This document shows, in pieces, positions 4,851 to 27,790 of a stretch of DNA of 27,923 nt. The stretch is taken from IMG/VR virus record IMGVR_UViG_3300024520_000403, positions 1 to 27,923 of that record; one strand, given 5' to 3'. The notes under the pieces were generated by a model that made no database searches, had not been told where the DNA came from, and saw nothing but the letters and a program-made list of their open reading frames with translations. Both the position numbers and the translations under genes were made by a program. This DNA comes from a virus. Position 1 is the first letter of the stretch, and each line of letters begins with the position of its first letter.

Positions 4851-5156
4851 TTACACCTCCACCCAAGCTAAAGTTCCTGGTGCGAAACCTCTTACTTCTG
4901 TTGGAGATATTGTCAATGAATTTGGAACGGTAGATCCATTACCATCAACTGTATCGTTAGTTACACCTTCATTAATTATGTAAACAGGTTGAGTTGCATT
5001 TGCTAGTAAAGGAAGTGTTAAGGTATTACCTCCATCACTTATCACATATTGATCTGTTACAAGTATTTGGTAATCTCCACTAACTCTTACTAAGTTAGCA
5101 CCTTCACTAGGAACACCACCGCCACTAGTAGATAATTTACCCATCAAGATAGTCAT
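4851..5156 (-). CDS. Small beta-rich virion surface protein (fibre cassette member)
   Basis: The 101-aa protein has the pattern DYQILVTDQYVISDGG, then TLTLPLL, a D/N/G-rich middle, and an end LAWVEV. This resembles short beta modules common in phage fibre proteins (a YTITATDEVV...VTLP type of segment). It begins MTIL and then a Ser/Gly linker, as does the 574-aa gene that follows the other copy of the upstream 93-aa gene, so both carry the same cassette junction. ATG overlaps the preceding stop as TAATG, with AGGAGGTTG as Shine-Dalgarno inside the preceding gene. The specific function is unknown. Confidence 0.8.
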   Translation of the reverse strand: MTILMGKLSTSGGGVPSEGANLVRVSGDYQILVTDQYVISDGGNTLTLPLLANATQPVYIINEGVTNDTVDGNGSTVPNSLTISPTEVRGFAPGTLAWVEV

Positions 5157-5437
5157 TACACAACCTCCTGAACAGCCAAGATAACTCCATTATCACTGGA
5201 ACACCTACACCAAATTCTATCAGAACCAAAAAGTACATTAGCTACAGAGTAATTCTTCCCCCTACTTGTTATCAGTTTACCCACTTCATCCTCAGTGGGG
5301 ATAGATGAGTCTTCTGTAATGAATACTTTATAGTTACCTTTATTCATTAATTCCATTGCAGTACCTACCGCAATAGTTGAAACTGTGTTGATATCTACCC
5401 AACTGTCAGACACAGCCACTTCGAATACAACTGCCAT
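5156..5437 (-). CDS. 93-aa fibre-cassette protein, copy 2
   Basis: This small beta-rich protein has the core motif SDSWVDIN...TIAVGTAMELMNKG and ends VILAVQEVV. It aligns without gaps to the 93-aa product at 7385-7666 with 12 substitutions, so the pair arose by recent duplication. Similar short proteins accompany phage fibre genes and probably form part of a baseplate or fibre collar; that is family-level inference. Its stop overlaps the next ATG (TAATG). AAGGAAAT lies before its own start. Confidence 0.85.
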   Translation of the reverse strand: MAVVFEVAVSDSWVDINTVSTIAVGTAMELMNKGNYKVFITEDSSIPTEDEVGKLITSRGKNYSVANVLFGSDRIWCRCSSDNGVILAVQEVV

Positions 5438-5660: not shown

Positions 5661-7385
5661 TTACCTCTCTGTTAGTATCATAAAAGATTCCAACTCTGCC
5701 GTTACATTACTAGTTGATGAAAGGTTAGCAACTTGCCACTTAACATAATCGTTAACCTCTAACCTGACCGCGAACTGTCCGTCAAAAAAAGCTACATCCC
5801 TACTACCGAGTAAACTGCTTACAGGCCGTCGTTGTATACCGACATCTTCAAAAGATGAAGTATTGTCATTCCATTTTACAATTTTAAGTGCTAAGTCATT
5901 ATTTGCAGTCCCCTCCAATACTGCATCGAAGTAGATTTTATAATCATGAGGACTAGAACCTAAATGACGAAGTTGTGAAGGAGACGGACTGTCAAAATGC
6001 TCAAGGAGTGAAGTGGTCGTACTTCCGAGTATATCGTAATAATCGCCTTGTACTGTAATTACTGTAGCCACCTCAGTTGTAATAGTGGACCTACCTCCAA
6101 CATGAGTATTGTTTACACCAACATTACCTTCCCAGTGACATGGCAGTTCAGAAGCCTCTATATTAGGTGTGATGTTAGCATCACTAGGGTTTTGCGCCCC
6201 ATTTCTTGTTAAGAGCATACCCTCAAGTTGCAACGTAGATGGATTTGGAAAATTAGATGAGGTGAAATCGAGATAAGATGCGCTGGCAGGAAGGTCTACA
6301 TTTTGATTAGTTTTAAACCTACTATTCATAACAAAACCAGCCCCAGCCTCAAATACAGGACTAGTCATAGCTGGATCTAAACGCCTAACTACAGAACCTT
6401 CTAAAAAATAACCCCCACCCCAAACTCCTGCTAAGGTTAAGGTCGGTTGTCCTCCAAACCTTCCCGTACCTGTCTCAAAACCTTGCATGTATTCTGTTAT
6501 AACACCAAGACTAGTACAGTCGTTATAATTAACCCGTGACATCTCTATAGCACGAAAAGTATCAAGTGCTGTTATGTCATAAACCCTAGAGTTAGTTGTC
6601 CCTGTAATCTCTATCGCGAATTCTGCCCCGATAATATCTCCGCTTCCACCGACAGGAGAAGTGAAAAGTGTGTAGTTGTCATCAGAACAGATTAATTTAG
6701 ATATATTAAAAGAATGACCTCTTAATGTAAGTCCTCCTGAAGGAACCTCTATATTTATACCTGTTCCCGTGAAATCTATAACACCATCTAAGAAATATTC
6801 AACACTAGATGACAAAGTACCTGATAACTCATTAGGAGTCTTAACTGCCACCTGTAAGTCATAGGGATTAGGAGAACCAATTACAGTTAAACCTTGAACT
6901 AAGGCTATATCTATGTAGTTATACTGTCCATTGGACATGGAAGGTCCATTAGCTAAAGTGTTTAAGGCTACCCCTCTATCATGATACATTTGTATCTCTA
7001 CTGTATCCCCTGCTGACAAACTTACATTAACAGATCCTTGCACATGTGCATTCATAACGCCTGTGACTTCAGCATAGGTCGTGGATAAGTAATCATTAAG
7101 TGCACCATTTACATGAAGTTCTAGTATACATTTCTCTCCAGCAGTCCAAGATTCTTCACTTGAAACAGATGCAGATATATTATAAACTCCTTCAACTGTT
7201 GCAGTAAATATACCTAAAGTTCCATTCCATTCCCCCAGTACATCATAATCAGTTTCATTATAAATAATAGTGGTGGCCACAGTTGAAGGTATAGCTTGTG
7301 TTGTCCCTCTAACAACCCTTAAGGATGTTACAGGTCCACTGGAGGTAACAGTCCCTCCATTACCAGAAGAATGAAGTATAGTCAT
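5661..7385 (-). CDS. Fibre/baseplate protein with N-terminal C1q-like domain
   Basis: This 574-aa protein has a Ser/Gly/Thr linker (residues 1-25), then at about 26-165 a C1q/TNF-like jelly roll. Marker segments are YDVLGEWNGTLGIFTATVEG, VYNISASVS, AGEKCILELHVNG and LSAGDTVEIQMYHDRG. The middle (about 180-430) is irregular beta structure with S/T/G-rich turns. Residues ~450-574 form a second beta-sandwich ending FMILTER. C1q-like domains in phage fibres trimerise and bind ligands; receptor binding is inferred. ATG overlaps the stop of the 93-aa gene (TAATG) with AGGAGGTTG upstream. A perfect 16-nt palindrome (5652-5667) covers the stop codon. Confidence 0.8.
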   Translation of the reverse strand: MTILHSSGNGGTVTSSGPVTSLRVVRGTTQAIPSTVATTIIYNETDYDVLGEWNGTLGIFTATVEGVYNISASVSSEESWTAGEKCILELHVNGALNDYLSTTYAEVTGVMNAHVQGSVNVSLSAGDTVEIQMYHDRGVALNTLANGPSMSNGQYNYIDIALVQGLTVIGSPNPYDLQVAVKTPNELSGTLSSSVEYFLDGVIDFTGTGINIEVPSGGLTLRGHSFNISKLICSDDNYTLFTSPVGGSGDIIGAEFAIEITGTTNSRVYDITALDTFRAIEMSRVNYNDCTSLGVITEYMQGFETGTGRFGGQPTLTLAGVWGGGYFLEGSVVRRLDPAMTSPVFEAGAGFVMNSRFKTNQNVDLPASASYLDFTSSNFPNPSTLQLEGMLLTRNGAQNPSDANITPNIEASELPCHWEGNVGVNNTHVGGRSTITTEVATVITVQGDYYDILGSTTTSLLEHFDSPSPSQLRHLGSSPHDYKIYFDAVLEGTANNDLALKIVKWNDNTSSFEDVGIQRRPVSSLLGSRDVAFFDGQFAVRLEVNDYVKWQVANLSSTSNVTAELESFMILTER

Positions 7386-7854
7386 TACACAACCTCCTGC
7401 ACTGCTAGTATAACGCCATTACCACTGGAACATCTACACCAGATCCTATCAGAACCTGTAAGGACATTTACCACAGCGTAATTCTTCGATCTACTTGTTA
7501 TTAACTTACCTACCTCATCCTCTGTAGGGATAGACGCATCTTCTGTAATAAATACCTTATAACTTCCTTTGTTCATTACTTCTACTGCAGTCCCTACTGC
7601 AATAGTTGTTACCGTGTTAATGTCCACCCAACTATCAGATACAACCACTTCGTATACAACTGCCATTTTTAATTTCCTTAGAGTTTTAAATTAGTATCAG
7701 TATTGCCTAACTAACTTTATTTCAAAGTTTTAGGGCTGTATGGAGAACACTCTTCATATTGATTGTATTTGTTAGGGTTGTCTCGGTTAATAAATATATT
7801 ATCTTCCTTAAGACCGCCTAATATAACTTGTGAACAACCTGATCCATTGTTCAT
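7380..7854 (-). repeat. Duplicated fibre cassette, copy 1
   Basis: Partner of 5151-5627. Here the unit is embedded in an intact 181-aa gene, which identifies it as the likely source copy. Confidence 0.85.
7385..7666 (-). CDS. 93-aa fibre-cassette protein, copy 1
   Basis: This is the paralogue of the 93-aa protein at 5156-5437 (81 of 93 residues identical, no gaps). It has SDSWVDIN, TIAVGTAVEVMNKG, a conserved IWCRCSS and the end VILAVQEVV. It sits directly after the intact 181-aa gene and before the C1q-domain gene, with a TAATG junction into the latter. Because the full upstream gene is intact here, this copy is probably the ancestral position. Function is unknown beyond association with fibre genes. 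Confidence 0.85.
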   Translation of the reverse strand: MAVVYEVVVSDSWVDINTVTTIAVGTAVEVMNKGSYKVFITEDASIPTEDEVGKLITSRSKNYAVVNVLTGSDRIWCRCSSGNGVILAVQEVV

Positions 7855-18404: not shown

Positions 18405-19574
18405 TTACCTAGCTCTAAAAGTCTTAACACTTCTGTTTCCCATACTTCCCCTCATTGCTGATAGTTTAGTTTTAGTATTATTAGTCGGCATTGGGGTTGG
18501 TTTATGTGTCTTAGCTTTAACTAAGTAGTTGTAGCAACTGGCTGCTCCATCAGGGATATCATCTTTACGACTTGAAGTAGATCTCTCTCCATCAAATGTC
18601 TCCAGTTCTTTGTAGAAATGATCTAATGTCTCCTTATTAAAAGTAGATTCAACTATACTTATAAGTCCATTTTGCGCCGCAGAAGAGAATGGTTCAAATC
18701 GAGTTAATTTAGACTTATTAGAGGGTGTTGGGTCTGATTTAACTCTAAAACCTTCAGCACTGATCTTCTTTGCAATTTCACGATAAGCTGTTTGACCAGA
18801 TGCCCCAGGATCTATCGGAAGTACTACATGGCAATCATCTCCATCAATTTTAGATTGTCTTATAATACTGTTATCACGTTGTCCAGGTCTCTGGAAGACT
18901 CTCCCTTTAACCTTAGTGGCCTTATCTTCTGTCTCTGGGTCATAGTCCCCAACGATAATGAACTCTCCGTCACGGGTCTTGAGCATCTTCACAGAGGCAG
19001 TTGCATCGGGGTGTCTATTCTTATCAGATGGTTCAGAAGACGCTAAATCCCAAGCACGAGCCTCTTTACAACCAAAAGGTCTCTTATCTAGCTTATGAAG
19101 CCATTCTCTTTGGAAGTAATTAGATCCTTCAGGTTGAGCGTGCCAACATCCATCTAACAGACGCATACGGTTAACACGGCTTTGAGCTTTCAAGGCAGAG
19201 AGATATTTAGGATTGCTATTAATTAATGCTGGGTTATCAAAGATCGTTCCTCCGATAAACAAGAATGTTAAAGGTGCTACATAAACTTCCTTCCCTTCAT
19301 TCTCATTATAAACCCAACATAAATCAGGGTACTCTTTTTCTAACTCTTCAGCAGTGTCAGCAAACTTAGGCATATCATCAACAATTACAAAATGACGGAC
19401 AACTCCTAGTTTATTTTCATCAAAGTATCCTTCTTCATCAAGATACCAACTTACCCAATGATATACCCAAGATTGATAATCAGGGTTAGTTGTTGCTAAG
19501 AGGAATGAATCATTATCTGCTGCAGATCGTAACCTTCCAATCAAGTAAAGGAATTGACTTTGTTCAAAATGTGT
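18405..19574 (-). CDS. terL: Terminase large subunit, exon 3 (end of ATPase, nuclease domain)
   Basis: This exon gives residues 127-515 of spliced TerL. It opens THFEQSQFLYLIGRLRS, which continues directly from the Walker B end DEL of exon 2. FLLATTNP (about 152) is the coupling motif. The RNase H-like nuclease domain follows with candidate metal ligands D302 (ARAWDLASS), D381 (IDPGASG) and D468 (DIPDGAAS), which cut concatemeric DNA during headful or cos packaging. An apparent TTG start at 19544 is only an in-frame leucine; the true 5' boundary is the intron end at 19575 (last intron base G). The basic C-terminal tail (about residues 480-515) may dock on the portal. A terminator and a new promoter follow. 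Confidence 0.93.
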   Translation of the reverse strand, partial: THFEQSQFLYLIGRLRSAADNDSFLLATTNPDYQSWVYHWVSWYLDEEGYFDENKLGVVRHFVIVDDMPKFADTAEELEKEYPDLCWVYNENEGKEVYVAPLTFLFIGGTIFDNPALINSNPKYLSALKAQSRVNRMRLLDGCWHAQPEGSNYFQREWLHKLDKRPFGCKEARAWDLASSEPSDKNRHPDATASVKMLKTRDGEFIIVGDYDPETEDKATKVKGRVFQRPGQRDNSIIRQSKIDGDDCHVVLPIDPGASGQTAYREIAKKISAEGFRVKSDPTPSNKSKLTRFEPFSSAAQNGLISIVESTFNKETLDHFYKELETFDGERSTSSRKDDIPDGAASCYNYLVKAKTHKPTPMPTNNTKTKLSAMRGSMGNRSVKTFRAR

Positions 19575-20607
19575 CAGTTATGTTCAAAGAAGATCGCTAC
19601 ATCTTCTCCAGTTCTCTTATGAACTTCTGCATGTTTCCATACAGCTCAGACTATATCATCACCCTTTCAAGAGGGTGCTGTGCGCTTCGGTCATCAAAAG
19701 CTTATGACCTACTCTACTAACTCCTTTTCAGGGTTTTCGATAGTCGTTGCACGCCATGTTTATAAGTATAGTAATTAAAATTTTAAGTTTTTTGTTATTC
19801 TTTTATAGCTCTTTCTGTCTCTAATACTCTTAATCTTCCTGACAGTTAAAGAATTGTTAGTACTAATATTAAGTACCTCTTTATCTGTTAATCCACTAGA
19901 GATCTGATGACATATCCATTTTATAGTATTTTCTGATAACAAGTTATAATCCTTAGTACTATTAAGGTCATAGTTAAGTGTTATATTTTTGAAACAACTT
20001 TGGTTTTGTATATTCTTTACTACAGACTTACTCACCCTTTTAATCTTAGCAATGTCTATAGGTCTTGTACCTTCCATTAAGTACTGGCAGATACTTATTA
20101 CATCTCTCTCTGTAAGTTTCGTATTTGGACTGTCAGTACTAGAAGCTTTATGATGAAGTCCTGAATCATATGCATGTTGCACGTTTTCTGAGACTGTACA
20201 CCATTCAAGGTTACTTATACTATTGTTTCTTTTATTACCATCTTTATGGTTAACTACTGGTTTATTATCAATATTATGTAAAAAACTTTCAGCTAATAAC
20301 CTGTGAACATATTTAGTTTTTCTTACACCGTTGTCATTTATAATAGCAACAGTTAAGTAATTACCAAATCCAGTACCTCTTGGTATTAACGTATAATCTC
20401 TTTTTATATTAACAACATCACCATTTCTTGATATTGTATAATTACTAAAATTTTCTATAACTTTCTTCATAAGTATTTCCCCTACTGAGATTCGTGGTAT
20501 ACTTATAAACACATCGCTCAGGATTACCTCCAACATAACTTGGTAAGGCTTCCCCTGAATTCACACAGTTTTCGATGTACATTACTGTACAAAGGCTCTA
20601 CAAATTA
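19575..20607 (-). mobile_element. Group I intron 2 in terL, carrying an HNH homing endonuclease
   Basis: The 1033-nt insertion splits codons L126 and T127. Exon 2 ends ...GAGCTT and the intron ends ...AACTG. P1 forms between exon GCUU and intron GAGC with the required U-G wobble at the 5' splice site, extended by UA/UA. Core elements are P (AATTCAGGGGAAG), Q (GTAATCCTGAGC), R (CAACGACTATC) and S (GATATAGTCTGAG), with P7 pairing GACTA/TAGTC (19745-19741 with 19653-19649). A P9 hairpin CTGTATG-GAAA-CATGCAG (19644-19627) follows. The last base is the omega G. The S-P9 region resembles that of intron 1, so the two introns are related. Confidence 0.93.
19775..20470 (-). CDS. Intron-encoded HNH homing endonuclease (NUMOD4-HNH type)
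   Basis: The 231-aa protein begins at ATG 20470 (MKKVIENF), preceded by AGGGGA; an upstream TTG extension would read through intron core sequence and is unlikely. Residues ~5-30 (YTISRNGDVVNIKRD) are a NUMOD4-like element. Residues ~56-100 are the HNH_3 nuclease: H56, NHKDGNKRNN with H75 and D77, then NLEWCT at 88-92. Two C-terminal helix-turn-helix-like repeats (about 118-163 and 178-224; TERDVISICQYLMEG and SENTIKWICHQISSG) should bind DNA, similar to NUMOD/HTH arms. By analogy with I-HmuI-type enzymes it nicks or cuts intronless terL alleles to spread the intron. Confidence 0.93.
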   Translation of the reverse strand: MKKVIENFSNYTISRNGDVVNIKRDYTLIPRGTGFGNYLTVAIINDNGVRKTKYVHRLLAESFLHNIDNKPVVNHKDGNKRNNSISNLEWCTVSENVQHAYDSGLHHKASSTDSPNTKLTERDVISICQYLMEGTRPIDIAKIKRVSKSVVKNIQNQSCFKNITLNYDLNSTKDYNLLSENTIKWICHQISSGLTDKEVLNISTNNSLTVRKIKSIRDRKSYKRITKNLKF

Positions 20608-20904
20608 AAGCTCATCGAACCCGATCGCGGAGTATTGGAGACCCTGATGGTTCTTTTCTGCATCTTGCTCATGTTCAATATGAGTAAATTCAATACTACC
20701 TGCACCATTAAAAGTAACCTTCATTGGCTGCTCTTTAGATCTTATACCAATAGGTTTGTACAGTTTCTTAGCTTCTGTAAATAAACCACCTGCAGCTTTT
20801 AAAGGAGGGGATGTTCTTCGAAAGATTACCCCTTCGAAATTATCATCAGTTGCTGCATAATAACCTACTTTGTTTAAAAGAAGTCTACTCTTACCACTAC
20901 CTGC
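20608..20904 (-). CDS. terL: Terminase large subunit, exon 2 (ATPase core)
   Basis: Exactly 99 codons, giving spliced residues 28-126. The exon opens AGSGKSRLLL, completing the Walker A loop begun by exon 1 (GGA|AGSGKS), and closes with YSAIGFDEL, the Walker B motif with acidic D124 and E125. VIFRRTSPPL contains the arginine segment usual for TerL. The ATG at 20907 looks like a start but its G is the last base of intron 1, so it is not the initiation codon. A TAA three bases past the exon end belongs to intron 2. The exon is in phase at both ends. Confidence 0.93.
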
Positions 20905-21151
20905 CATAATGGTTAAATGTTACAGTGCAACCGTCTCCGCTACACCTCTGTATGTTTCTATACAGATCAGATCATATCTTCATCCTTTCTCATAAAAGGA
21001 GCCTCACGTTTCGAATCTACTTAGACCCTACGAGCACAATGCTCTGATCGTTACACCCATGAATTTAATCATTCGGCTCGGTATTGCCCTCATCTCAATG
21101 TTAGGGGTTCCACCGAATTAGCGAGGTTTAAAGGCACCACAGGAATTATTT
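20905..21151 (-). ncRNA. Group I intron 1 in terL (247 nt, ORF-less)
   Basis: This self-splicing ribozyme lies between the codons for A27 and A28 inside the Walker A motif. P1: exon GGCGCU pairs with intron GGUGCC, six pairs ending in the diagnostic U-G at the splice site. P (AATTCGGTGGAACCC) and Q (GGGCAATACCGAGCC) form the P4 region. R and S contribute GATCAGA (21049-21043) and TCTGATC (20971-20965) for P7. The P8 loop contains TCCTTT/AAAGGA. P9 is CTGTAT-AGAAAC-ATACAG (20965-20948). The 3' end is ATTATG with terminal G. It would depend on the host, or on the intron 2 enzyme, for mobility. Confidence 0.92.
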
Positions 21152-25792: not shown

Positions 25793-25811
25793 TGTCAATA
25801 ATTATTTGACA
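25793..25811. promoter_or_regulatory. Dyad of divergent TTGACA boxes
   Basis: TGTCAA-TAATTAT-TTGACA places an exact -35 box on each strand 7 nt apart, between divergent operons. The rightward box has a good -10 partner; the leftward one does not have a clear one at 17 nt (AACCTT). The dyad could also be an operator. Confidence 0.5.
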
Positions 25812-25834
25812 AGTTCTTCCTGGTTTTGTATTAT
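25806..25834 (+). promoter_or_regulatory. Sigma70 promoter for the rightward operon
   Basis: TTGACA (25806-25811), 17-nt spacer, TATTAT (25829-25834, five of six matches). It starts about 40 nt upstream of the PagL-like gene, whose Shine-Dalgarno is AAGAGGAA. Confidence 0.8.
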
Positions 25835-25879
25835 TCGAAGTGTACAATATATTCATTAATAAACCAAGAGGAATACAAA

Positions 25880-26377
25880 ATGAACACTAAAAGAACATCT
25901 GCTTTACTTGTCGTCTTGATTATAACATGCTTATCCTTTAATTCTTATACGGCTGAAGCCGCAGAAGGGTATACCTACCATACACCTGTACTACAACCTT
26001 ATATTGAATACGGAAGAACTACAGTTAACTCACACAACTCTCATGCAGGTTATGGGATTGTATACAAATCTAAGTGGGATGTCAACATTAGTACAACTGG
26101 ACAAGGGAATACTAAGAATGGGCACCAAGAACCTAAAGTGTTCTACTCATTATCAAGGATATTTGATTCAAAGGTTGACTTCTTATCTAAGGATGTTAAA
26201 CTGCGACTTGGTTTAGCTAAGACTAAAGGTGTTAATCTGATAGGAGATCATAACTTTAAACTAGGGATTATCTTAGCAGGGGAGGTTGCTGAGTTGGAAA
26301 TATTCCATTATAGTAGTGGTGGTGTATATAAACCTAATACAGGTGTTGATGGAGTTAAGCTGAGAATTAATTTATAG
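25880..26377 (+). CDS. Exported PagL-like lipid A 3-O-deacylase family protein
   Basis: This 165-aa protein starts at ATG 25880 (AAGAGGAA upstream); the frame from 25826 lies inside the promoter. Residues 1-28 form a Sec signal peptide (KR, hydrophobic LLVVLIITCLSF, then AEAA with likely cleavage near 27-28). The rest alternates short amphipathic strands, as in a small outer-membrane beta-barrel. The end IFHYSSGGVYKPNTGVDGVK matches the PagL C-terminal signature: His143-x-Ser145, then PNxG and an acidic residue at His+14 (Asp157, where PagL has Glu). PagL removes the 3-O acyl chain of lipid A. Host-surface change or exclusion of superinfecting phage is my inference; the Glu-to-Asp change leaves activity uncertain. 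Confidence 0.7.
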   Translation: MNTKRTSALLVVLIITCLSFNSYTAEAAEGYTYHTPVLQPYIEYGRTTVNSHNSHAGYGIVYKSKWDVNISTTGQGNTKNGHQEPKVFYSLSRIFDSKVDFLSKDVKLRLGLAKTKGVNLIGDHNFKLGIILAGEVAELEIFHYSSGGVYKPNTGVDGVKLRINL

Positions 26378-26389
26378 AGAGGAATTAAT

Positions 26390-26938
26390 ATGGTTACAGA
26401 ATTGAAGGTTGAGGTTAAGTATAAACTTATTGATAAGGAAGGGTATTGTAACGGTTGTGATATTACCAATTCACTGTTTGATTATCATTTTGAAGATGAC
26501 ATAGTAATACTTGACCATATAGACAGAGATGGTGATGGAATAAAGGATGGATACGTTATTATTGATATGTCCTTAAATGAAGGTAGGTTTTTCGAAGAAG
26601 TATTCGAAGAACAAGAATCCCCTGTTATAGGAAACTGGGATGGAAATTCTCCTATTGAAATGGGTCACAGACTTCTATATAACGGTAACTTAAGACAAGT
26701 AGTTTATAAAGATCCTGATAATGTTGTATGCCTTGCTGACATGGACGGAAAGTATACTACTTGCACAAGCGAGACATGTTCTAAGTTTTCGCCTATTGAT
26801 GGGACTGTTAGGGATAAGAAGGATATTATTTTAGAGAAGTTTGAGGACTATCTAAGCACACAGGATATACCAGAGTACCAATCTTTAATGGAAAGTCTAG
26901 CATTAGTATTACACGAGGTACTTATTGATGATATTTAA
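26390..26938 (+). CDS. Unknown 182-aa protein with an N-terminal domain shared with the DUF3310 protein
   Basis: Residues 1-75 (VKYKLIDKEGY...DGYVIIDMSLNEGRFFEEV) parallel the N-terminus of the protein at 27170-27790 (KTYRLIDEQGF...TDGTCVITYDEYKYFEEV), a small beta domain seen in phage accessory proteins. Residues ~75-130 hold a second such unit (MGHRLLYNGNLRQVVYKDPD, then ADMDGKYTTCTSETCSKFSP with four Cys/Thr positions). The C-terminus is helical and acidic. GAGAGGAA sits before the ATG. A read-through operon with the PagL-like gene is likely. Function unknown. Confidence 0.75.
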   Translation: MVTELKVEVKYKLIDKEGYCNGCDITNSLFDYHFEDDIVILDHIDRDGDGIKDGYVIIDMSLNEGRFFEEVFEEQESPVIGNWDGNSPIEMGHRLLYNGNLRQVVYKDPDNVVCLADMDGKYTTCTSETCSKFSPIDGTVRDKKDIILEKFEDYLSTQDIPEYQSLMESLALVLHEVLIDDI

Positions 26939-27170
26939 TATGAACCAAGGACAACAACTGAATATTACCTTAAAAGGTGTGACTGTTGAGAAGATGGATA
27001 TTTTCATTGATAGGATTATTAAGGAACAAGGTTATACCTTACATATGTTAGGTCAATATATCCACAATACATTGCAAGCAAGGACACATCCTAATTTAGT
27101 AGAAGAAGAAGCTTATAAACATATACTTAGACGAATTACACAACGACATAAACAACAGGAGAATGGATAA
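26928..27170 (+). CDS. Unknown 80-aa protein
   Basis: ATG 26928 is preferred because GAGG lies 9 nt upstream; ATG 26940 directly after the previous stop is the alternative. The protein has a strand-rich start (GQQLNITLKGVTVEKMDIFI) and two helices (RIIKEQGYTLHMLGQYIHNT; EEEAYKHILRRITQRHKQ) with a basic end. It overlaps both neighbours (TAATG with the next gene), so all three are translated as a unit. No recognised family. Confidence 0.7.
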   Translation: MIFNMNQGQQLNITLKGVTVEKMDIFIDRIIKEQGYTLHMLGQYIHNTLQARTHPNLVEEEAYKHILRRITQRHKQQENG

Positions 27171-27790
27171 TGATTGAGAAATTAGAAGCTGGTAAGACTT
27201 ATAGATTGATTGATGAACAAGGTTTTATTGTCGAAGATGATGGTAATTTGGGAATAATAAATGACTACTTCTCAGATGGTGAAATTTTAGTCGATGAGGT
27301 TATAGGGTATGTTGGTTATACAGATGGTACATGTGTTATTACCTATGATGAGTATAAGTACTTCGAGGAAGTTGTAACAGAGGATATTACAACAGAAGAG
27401 GAACCTCCTTCAGTTTCAGAACCAACTCAAAACGCAATCGATAGGCAAGTAGGAGGTAGTCACTACACTGACCAGAAAATGCAACCTATTGAGCTAGCTT
27501 ATAAACTTAACGCAACTCCAGCTTTCTGTAAAGTGGCTAAATATTGCTCACGGGTTAAAGATGATATGAATCAGCAAATTGATAAAGCTGTACATTGCGT
27601 TGAATTAGATAAAGCTTTAAAAGATCCAAGAAGTTATCCCAAAATTGAACTTAGTCTTACATTAGATTTGATTAAGGAATTCACAGAGTCATACTCACTT
27701 CGATATGCACTGTTTAACCTGTACATTGAAAACTACAACCTATGCTTTGATGACCTAGAGGCATTCCGTAATGAAAAACATAGTAGTTGA
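27170..27790 (+). CDS. DUF3310-containing protein with an extra N-terminal domain
   Basis: In this 206-aa protein residues ~1-70 are the small domain shared with the 182-aa neighbour, and residues ~75-90 form an acidic linker. Residues ~91-150 are a DUF3310 domain: VGGSHYTDQKMQPIELAYKL, then FCKVAKYCSRVK and DKAVHCVEL, the pattern found in T7 gp1.7 (reported as a nucleotide kinase) and relatives. A helical C-terminus follows. A nucleotide-metabolism role would fit the NrdAB and nucleotidase-like genes nearby, but that is inference. AGGAGAA precedes the ATG, which overlaps the previous stop as TAATG. Confidence 0.82.
   Translation: MIEKLEAGKTYRLIDEQGFIVEDDGNLGIINDYFSDGEILVDEVIGYVGYTDGTCVITYDEYKYFEEVVTEDITTEEEPPSVSEPTQNAIDRQVGGSHYTDQKMQPIELAYKLNATPAFCKVAKYCSRVKDDMNQQIDKAVHCVELDKALKDPRSYPKIELSLTLDLIKEFTESYSLRYALFNLYIENYNLCFDDLEAFRNEKHSS

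Follow-up and report, generated by a model that had tools for sequence, protein, structure and literature searches.

A Vibrio-phage-like virus carries a gene for a probable distant relative of the lipid A deacylase PagL

Alteration of the O-antigen by phages is known, and small exported eight-stranded barrels of the lambda Lom and Ail-OmpX family occur as accessory phage genes, Lom itself having no catalytic triad. Trimming of lipid A by phage enzymes appears to be undescribed in the literature that we searched, and no description of a phage-borne PagL, the lipid A 3-O-deacylase (PF09411), was found there. PagL genes nevertheless sit in many phage contigs. When IMG/VR was scanned for the pattern HYSNx5PNxG and the matches were then scored with profiles, Pseudomonas-type PagL was detected in at least about 100 contigs, a count that may include flanking host DNA. 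One such protein matched phrog_15758 with an E-value of 6e-111, and in contig L160 the PagL gene is accompanied by genes of the replication O-like and DnaB types. Diverged forms were found in at least seven contigs (L151, L152, L242, L137, L251, L252 and L254), the first three of which encode one and the same protein. The products are about 150-165 aa long where complete and combine an N-terminal signal with a C-terminal HYSN...PNxG motif; those of L151/L152/L242, L137, L251 and L254 score above the PF09411 cut-off, with E-values from 5e-7 to 1e-11. Those of the diverged phage proteins that were compared with INPHARED by tblastn had no match there. Phage structural genes accompany the PagL-like gene in L151, L242 and L251: a portal gene lies slightly further along in L242, and L251 contains a head maturation protease together with a T4-like RNA ligase. 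In L151 (617-1105) and L242 (10671-11159), the gene stands in the packaging module, where it directly follows the gene for the large subunit of terminase on the downstream side. A phage-borne PagL is not unique to the phage studied here, and the "distinct takeover strategy" put forward in the first-pass annotation was overstated, PagL genes being already present in so many phage contigs.

The window analyzed here, i.e. the whole stretch of 27,923 nucleotides, is an IMG/VR virus fragment (IMGVR_UViG_3300024520_000403) whose kin are the Vibrio phages PWH3a-P1 and ICP1 and the Aeromonas phage phiA009, with identities of 62-68% for terminase and 65% for NrdB. It encodes a Mu-type portal, a capsid E protein and an S78-type protease. 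The hosts are Gram-negative bacteria, and the virus is probably virulent, judging from its relatives. The gene of interest (25880..26377, + strand) encodes a PagL-like exported protein of 165 aa, and its GC (0.36) and GC3 (0.29) agree with the phage values. The strong promoter that had been claimed for it is present as the sigma-70 type sequence TTGACA-N17-TATTAT (25806..25834, +), with 11/12 consensus matches; relaxing the threshold gave 10 promoter-like sites against 11.4 expected, so that only the strength of this promoter is notable. A ribosome-binding-site-like AGAGG (25867..25871, +) can be read 8 nt before the ATG. A signal peptide, as proposed, is also apparent: by eye, the N-terminus, MNTKRTSALLVVLIITCLSFNSYTAEAAEG, is a typical Sec signal with a K/R n-region, hydrophobic residues 7-23 and an AEA/AEG c-region, which places the signal peptide at about residues 1-27 (25880..25960, +; AEA/A), and AlphaFold2 (AF2) predicts a helix over residues 3-20.

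The protein shares with PagL (P. aeruginosa 2ERV) an apparent signal peptide, the size and the predicted number of strands, as well as H-x-S, N-x-G, an acidic residue at His+14 and the position of this motif at the C-terminus. It differs from PagL in scoring below the PF09411 cut-off, in having Ser in place of the Asn after the catalytic Ser, in its final residue (Leu instead of the usual Phe or Tyr, which counts against the PagL reading) and in being phage-borne, and its barrel beyond the motif is unrecognisable by sequence. Members of phrog_15758 likewise represent a PagL-type gene in a phage genome; whereas they are near-canonical (HYSNAGIKQPNDGIE) and Pseudomonas-like, the window protein is highly diverged and belongs to a Vibrio-phage-like contig. 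The seven contigs with diverged forms retain HYSN and, where tested, pass the Pfam cut-off, in contrast to the window protein, which does neither and shows no detectable pairwise match to their products. Our best explanation, which we consider to have an even chance of being correct as a whole, is that the product is exported and forms an outer-membrane barrel, probably of eight strands, with a distant kinship to the lipid A 3-O-deacylase PagL. Of its parts, a PagL-related barrel is likely; an active lipid esterase has even odds or slightly less; and any one particular role, superinfection exclusion for example, is improbable.

The motif lies within HYSSGGVYKPNTGVD and comprises H143-Y-S145, P152-N153-T-G155 and D157, the last being His+14, and thus the H-x-S, PNxG and acidic residue are present in PagL spacing, as previously annotated. 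The degenerate DNA pattern of the motif has one match in the window and none in 100 shuffles; the C-terminal stretch of the protein is HYSSGGVYKPNTGVDGVKLRINL. Residues were tallied by aligning the window protein with 89 Gammaproteobacterial PagL homologues using hmmalign. His143 (26306..26308, +) and Ser145 (26312..26314, +) correspond to the catalytic His and Ser of PagL, which are found in 87/89 and 89/89 homologues, respectively. In Salmonella, PagL activity requires both the His and the Ser of the H-x-S motif (PMC4958258). The PNTG sequence at residues 152-155 (26333..26344, +) contains the conserved N-x-G (N in 87/89 and G in 86/89), and Asp157 (26348..26350, +) is equivalent to the third triad position, which is Glu in P. 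aeruginosa. The first-pass annotation had regarded this Asp as a peculiarity, but the position is occupied by N in 39, D in 30, E in 12, T in 4, S in 3 and Q in 1 of the homologues, and Asp is ordinary among PagLs. The real deviation, which had been overlooked, is the loss of the Asn after Ser: Ser146 (26315..26317, +) replaces a near-invariant residue (N in 87/89), the two other exceptions being Ser in L284 and His in L282. In the P. aeruginosa PagL structure paper this Asn is reportedly placed in the oxyanion hole, and its replacement is a ground for doubting catalysis.

The alternative that survives best, although we consider it rather unlikely, is an outer-membrane barrel that derives from PagL, is no longer catalytic and acts as a surface or membrane protein, e.g. 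in receptor masking, comparable to lambda Lom. It is favoured by the change from Asn to Ser beside the nucleophile and by the existence of bacterial PagL relatives (L116 and L117) that are, judging from their sequences, probably inactive, so that activity loss would occur in the PagL family. In these two relatives the catalytic His is replaced by Arg or Tyr (RLSN and YLSN). On the other hand, the window protein has kept the His, the Ser, the N-x-G and an acidic third residue in a sequence that is otherwise almost too diverged to recognise; such retention suggests that the active site is under selection. A barrel of the Ail/Lom type was rejected, as the window protein has no Ail/Lom Pfam match. 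The retention of the catalytic residues in an otherwise diverged barrel would also suit an active outer-membrane esterase directed at another lipid of the phage's own host, such as a phospholipid or another LPS acyl position; we regard this as quite improbable, since nothing in the data points to a particular substrate and all characterised PagLs act, to our knowledge, on lipid A.

The kinship of our preferred candidate, the distant PagL relative, was evaluated with several profile comparisons. PF09411 was the sole match among 24,736 Pfam models (E=5e-4, residues 133-163), in a listing that extended up to E=10 and from which HMMER filters remove most weak matches; the score of 20.6 bits lies below the gathering cut-off of 23 bits. 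The E-value was 1.3e-5 when the contig was taken as the search space, and hhalign gave E=7.6e-5 with a probability of 62. No match was found in PHROGs, NCBIfam or PDB sequences. Four PagL profiles were used, built from 112 bacterial homologues, 29 diverse Gammaproteobacterial homologues, five phage homologues, and the Gammaproteobacterial and phage sets taken together. The window protein scored 15-20 bits in them, a level reached by 0/5000 shuffles in any profile, although a single shuffle fell no more than 0.5 bit short in the phage profile. Of 11,735 viral ORFs scored with the combined profile, 107 attained the window protein's score and none without HYSNx5PNxG came within 6 bits of it; as the contigs of these ORFs had been chosen by that very pattern, the comparison tests specificity and not independence. 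When the region before the motif was scored alone, 4-8% of shuffles equalled the window protein, and therefore the homology rests on the C-terminus. At the sequence level, these comparisons show a statistically significant similarity to PagL over the last ~30 residues and a weak one beyond them. PagL is present in 108/369 Gammaproteobacteria genomes, and in these 369 genomes the window protein itself had matches at chance level only. No close homologues were found in INPHARED phages, in PLSDB, or in IMG/VR, either by a peptide scan or with the pattern HYS[SN]GGx3PNxG.

The predicted fold points weakly in the same direction. AF2 modelling with the five phage relatives yielded a signal helix and eight strands (residues 26-33, 58-63, 66-73, 86-99, 104-116, 124-133, 137-145 and 155-163), in which H143-S145 closes strand 7 and D157 belongs to strand 8; the strand number is that of the barrel assumed in the first-pass annotation, at a mean pLDDT of only 57.6 (pTM 0.48). 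When the PDB was searched with Foldseek, the PagL structure 2ERV took first place (E 8e-3, prob 1.00, TM only 0.36-0.39), followed by PagP; the fold match is only weakly independent, because the AF2 input alignment was itself PagL-like. A single-sequence AF2 run was uninformative (pLDDT 39), with the last hairpins alone formed. The earlier suggestion of PagL-likeness is thus supported by Pfam, the shuffles, hhalign and, weakly, the fold, and falls short at the Asn. An unrelated small secreted phage protein that resembles PagL at its C-terminus by chance is very improbable: the signal is limited to ~30 residues and the model confidence is low, but neither the shuffles in the four profiles nor the motif-less viral ORFs came up to its score, and the signal peptide and strand pattern also fit PagL.

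Because the Pfam cut-off is missed and the conserved Asn is absent, the protein was not filed as a PagL member; it may work like PagL nonetheless, and lipid A 3-O-deacylase activity is plausible. The protein would be made after infection from the gene that opens a rightward run, and it would be exported and inserted into the outer membrane by BAM. Ser145, His143 and Asp157 would then remove an acyl chain that is ester-linked to lipid A, or to a similar outer-leaflet lipid, and the cleavage would alter the packing or the LPS of the infected cell. We tentatively propose, as a possible rather than a probable scenario, that this virus, Vibrio-phage-like and probably virulent, uses its own diverged PagL with an altered oxyanion residue to remodel lipid A in the cell that it infects, and that the enzyme belongs to a larger, undescribed group of lipid A deacylases in phages. 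If active, such phage enzymes could change adsorption, vesicle shedding and how permeable the envelope is in lysogens or infected cells. Expression of PagL in Salmonella increases vesicle output and does not raise rpoE, cpxR or rcsC transcripts (PMC4958258), and hence gives no support to stress damping. Roles of the window protein in receptor alteration, superinfection or envelope stress are speculation.

PF09411 was absent from 23 records of relatives, namely six from INPHARED and 17 from IMG/VR (drawn from 20 loci found through terminase, several of them fragments), which makes the gene an accessory one; it would be of the moron type in this phage lineage. A contig 99.8% identical to the window phage (L256) stops short of the PagL-like locus, and no sister phages were recovered through the helicase or the 206-aa neighbour. 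The gene points away from the helicase side and is the first in a rightward run whose next starts are at 26390, 26925, 27170 and 27771. The next genes, all on the + strand, encode 182 aa (26390..26938; phrog_18833, E=9e-4), 81 aa (26925..27170; phrog_7791) and 206 aa (27170..27790; phrog_10946 and a weak DUF3310 match). The products of 26390-26938 and 27170-27790 have a common N-terminal module (phrog_18833), and the latter has an extra DUF3310-like part.

Several other features were observed in the window. The terminase large subunit looks split into a Walker-A part (20605-20907) and a C-terminal part (18405-19544), with an HNH_3 endonuclease ORF (19775-20536) between the two, an arrangement suggestive of an intron or a homing element. 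Two terminase ORFs are also present in Aeromonas phiA009. In the NrdB encoded at 908-2248, the C-terminus seems to be a fused glutaredoxin-like part (FSKDNCPMCTILK). Finally, near-identical 93-aa ORFs, i.e. a duplication, are found at 5156-5437 and 7385-7666, between large tail-type ORFs.
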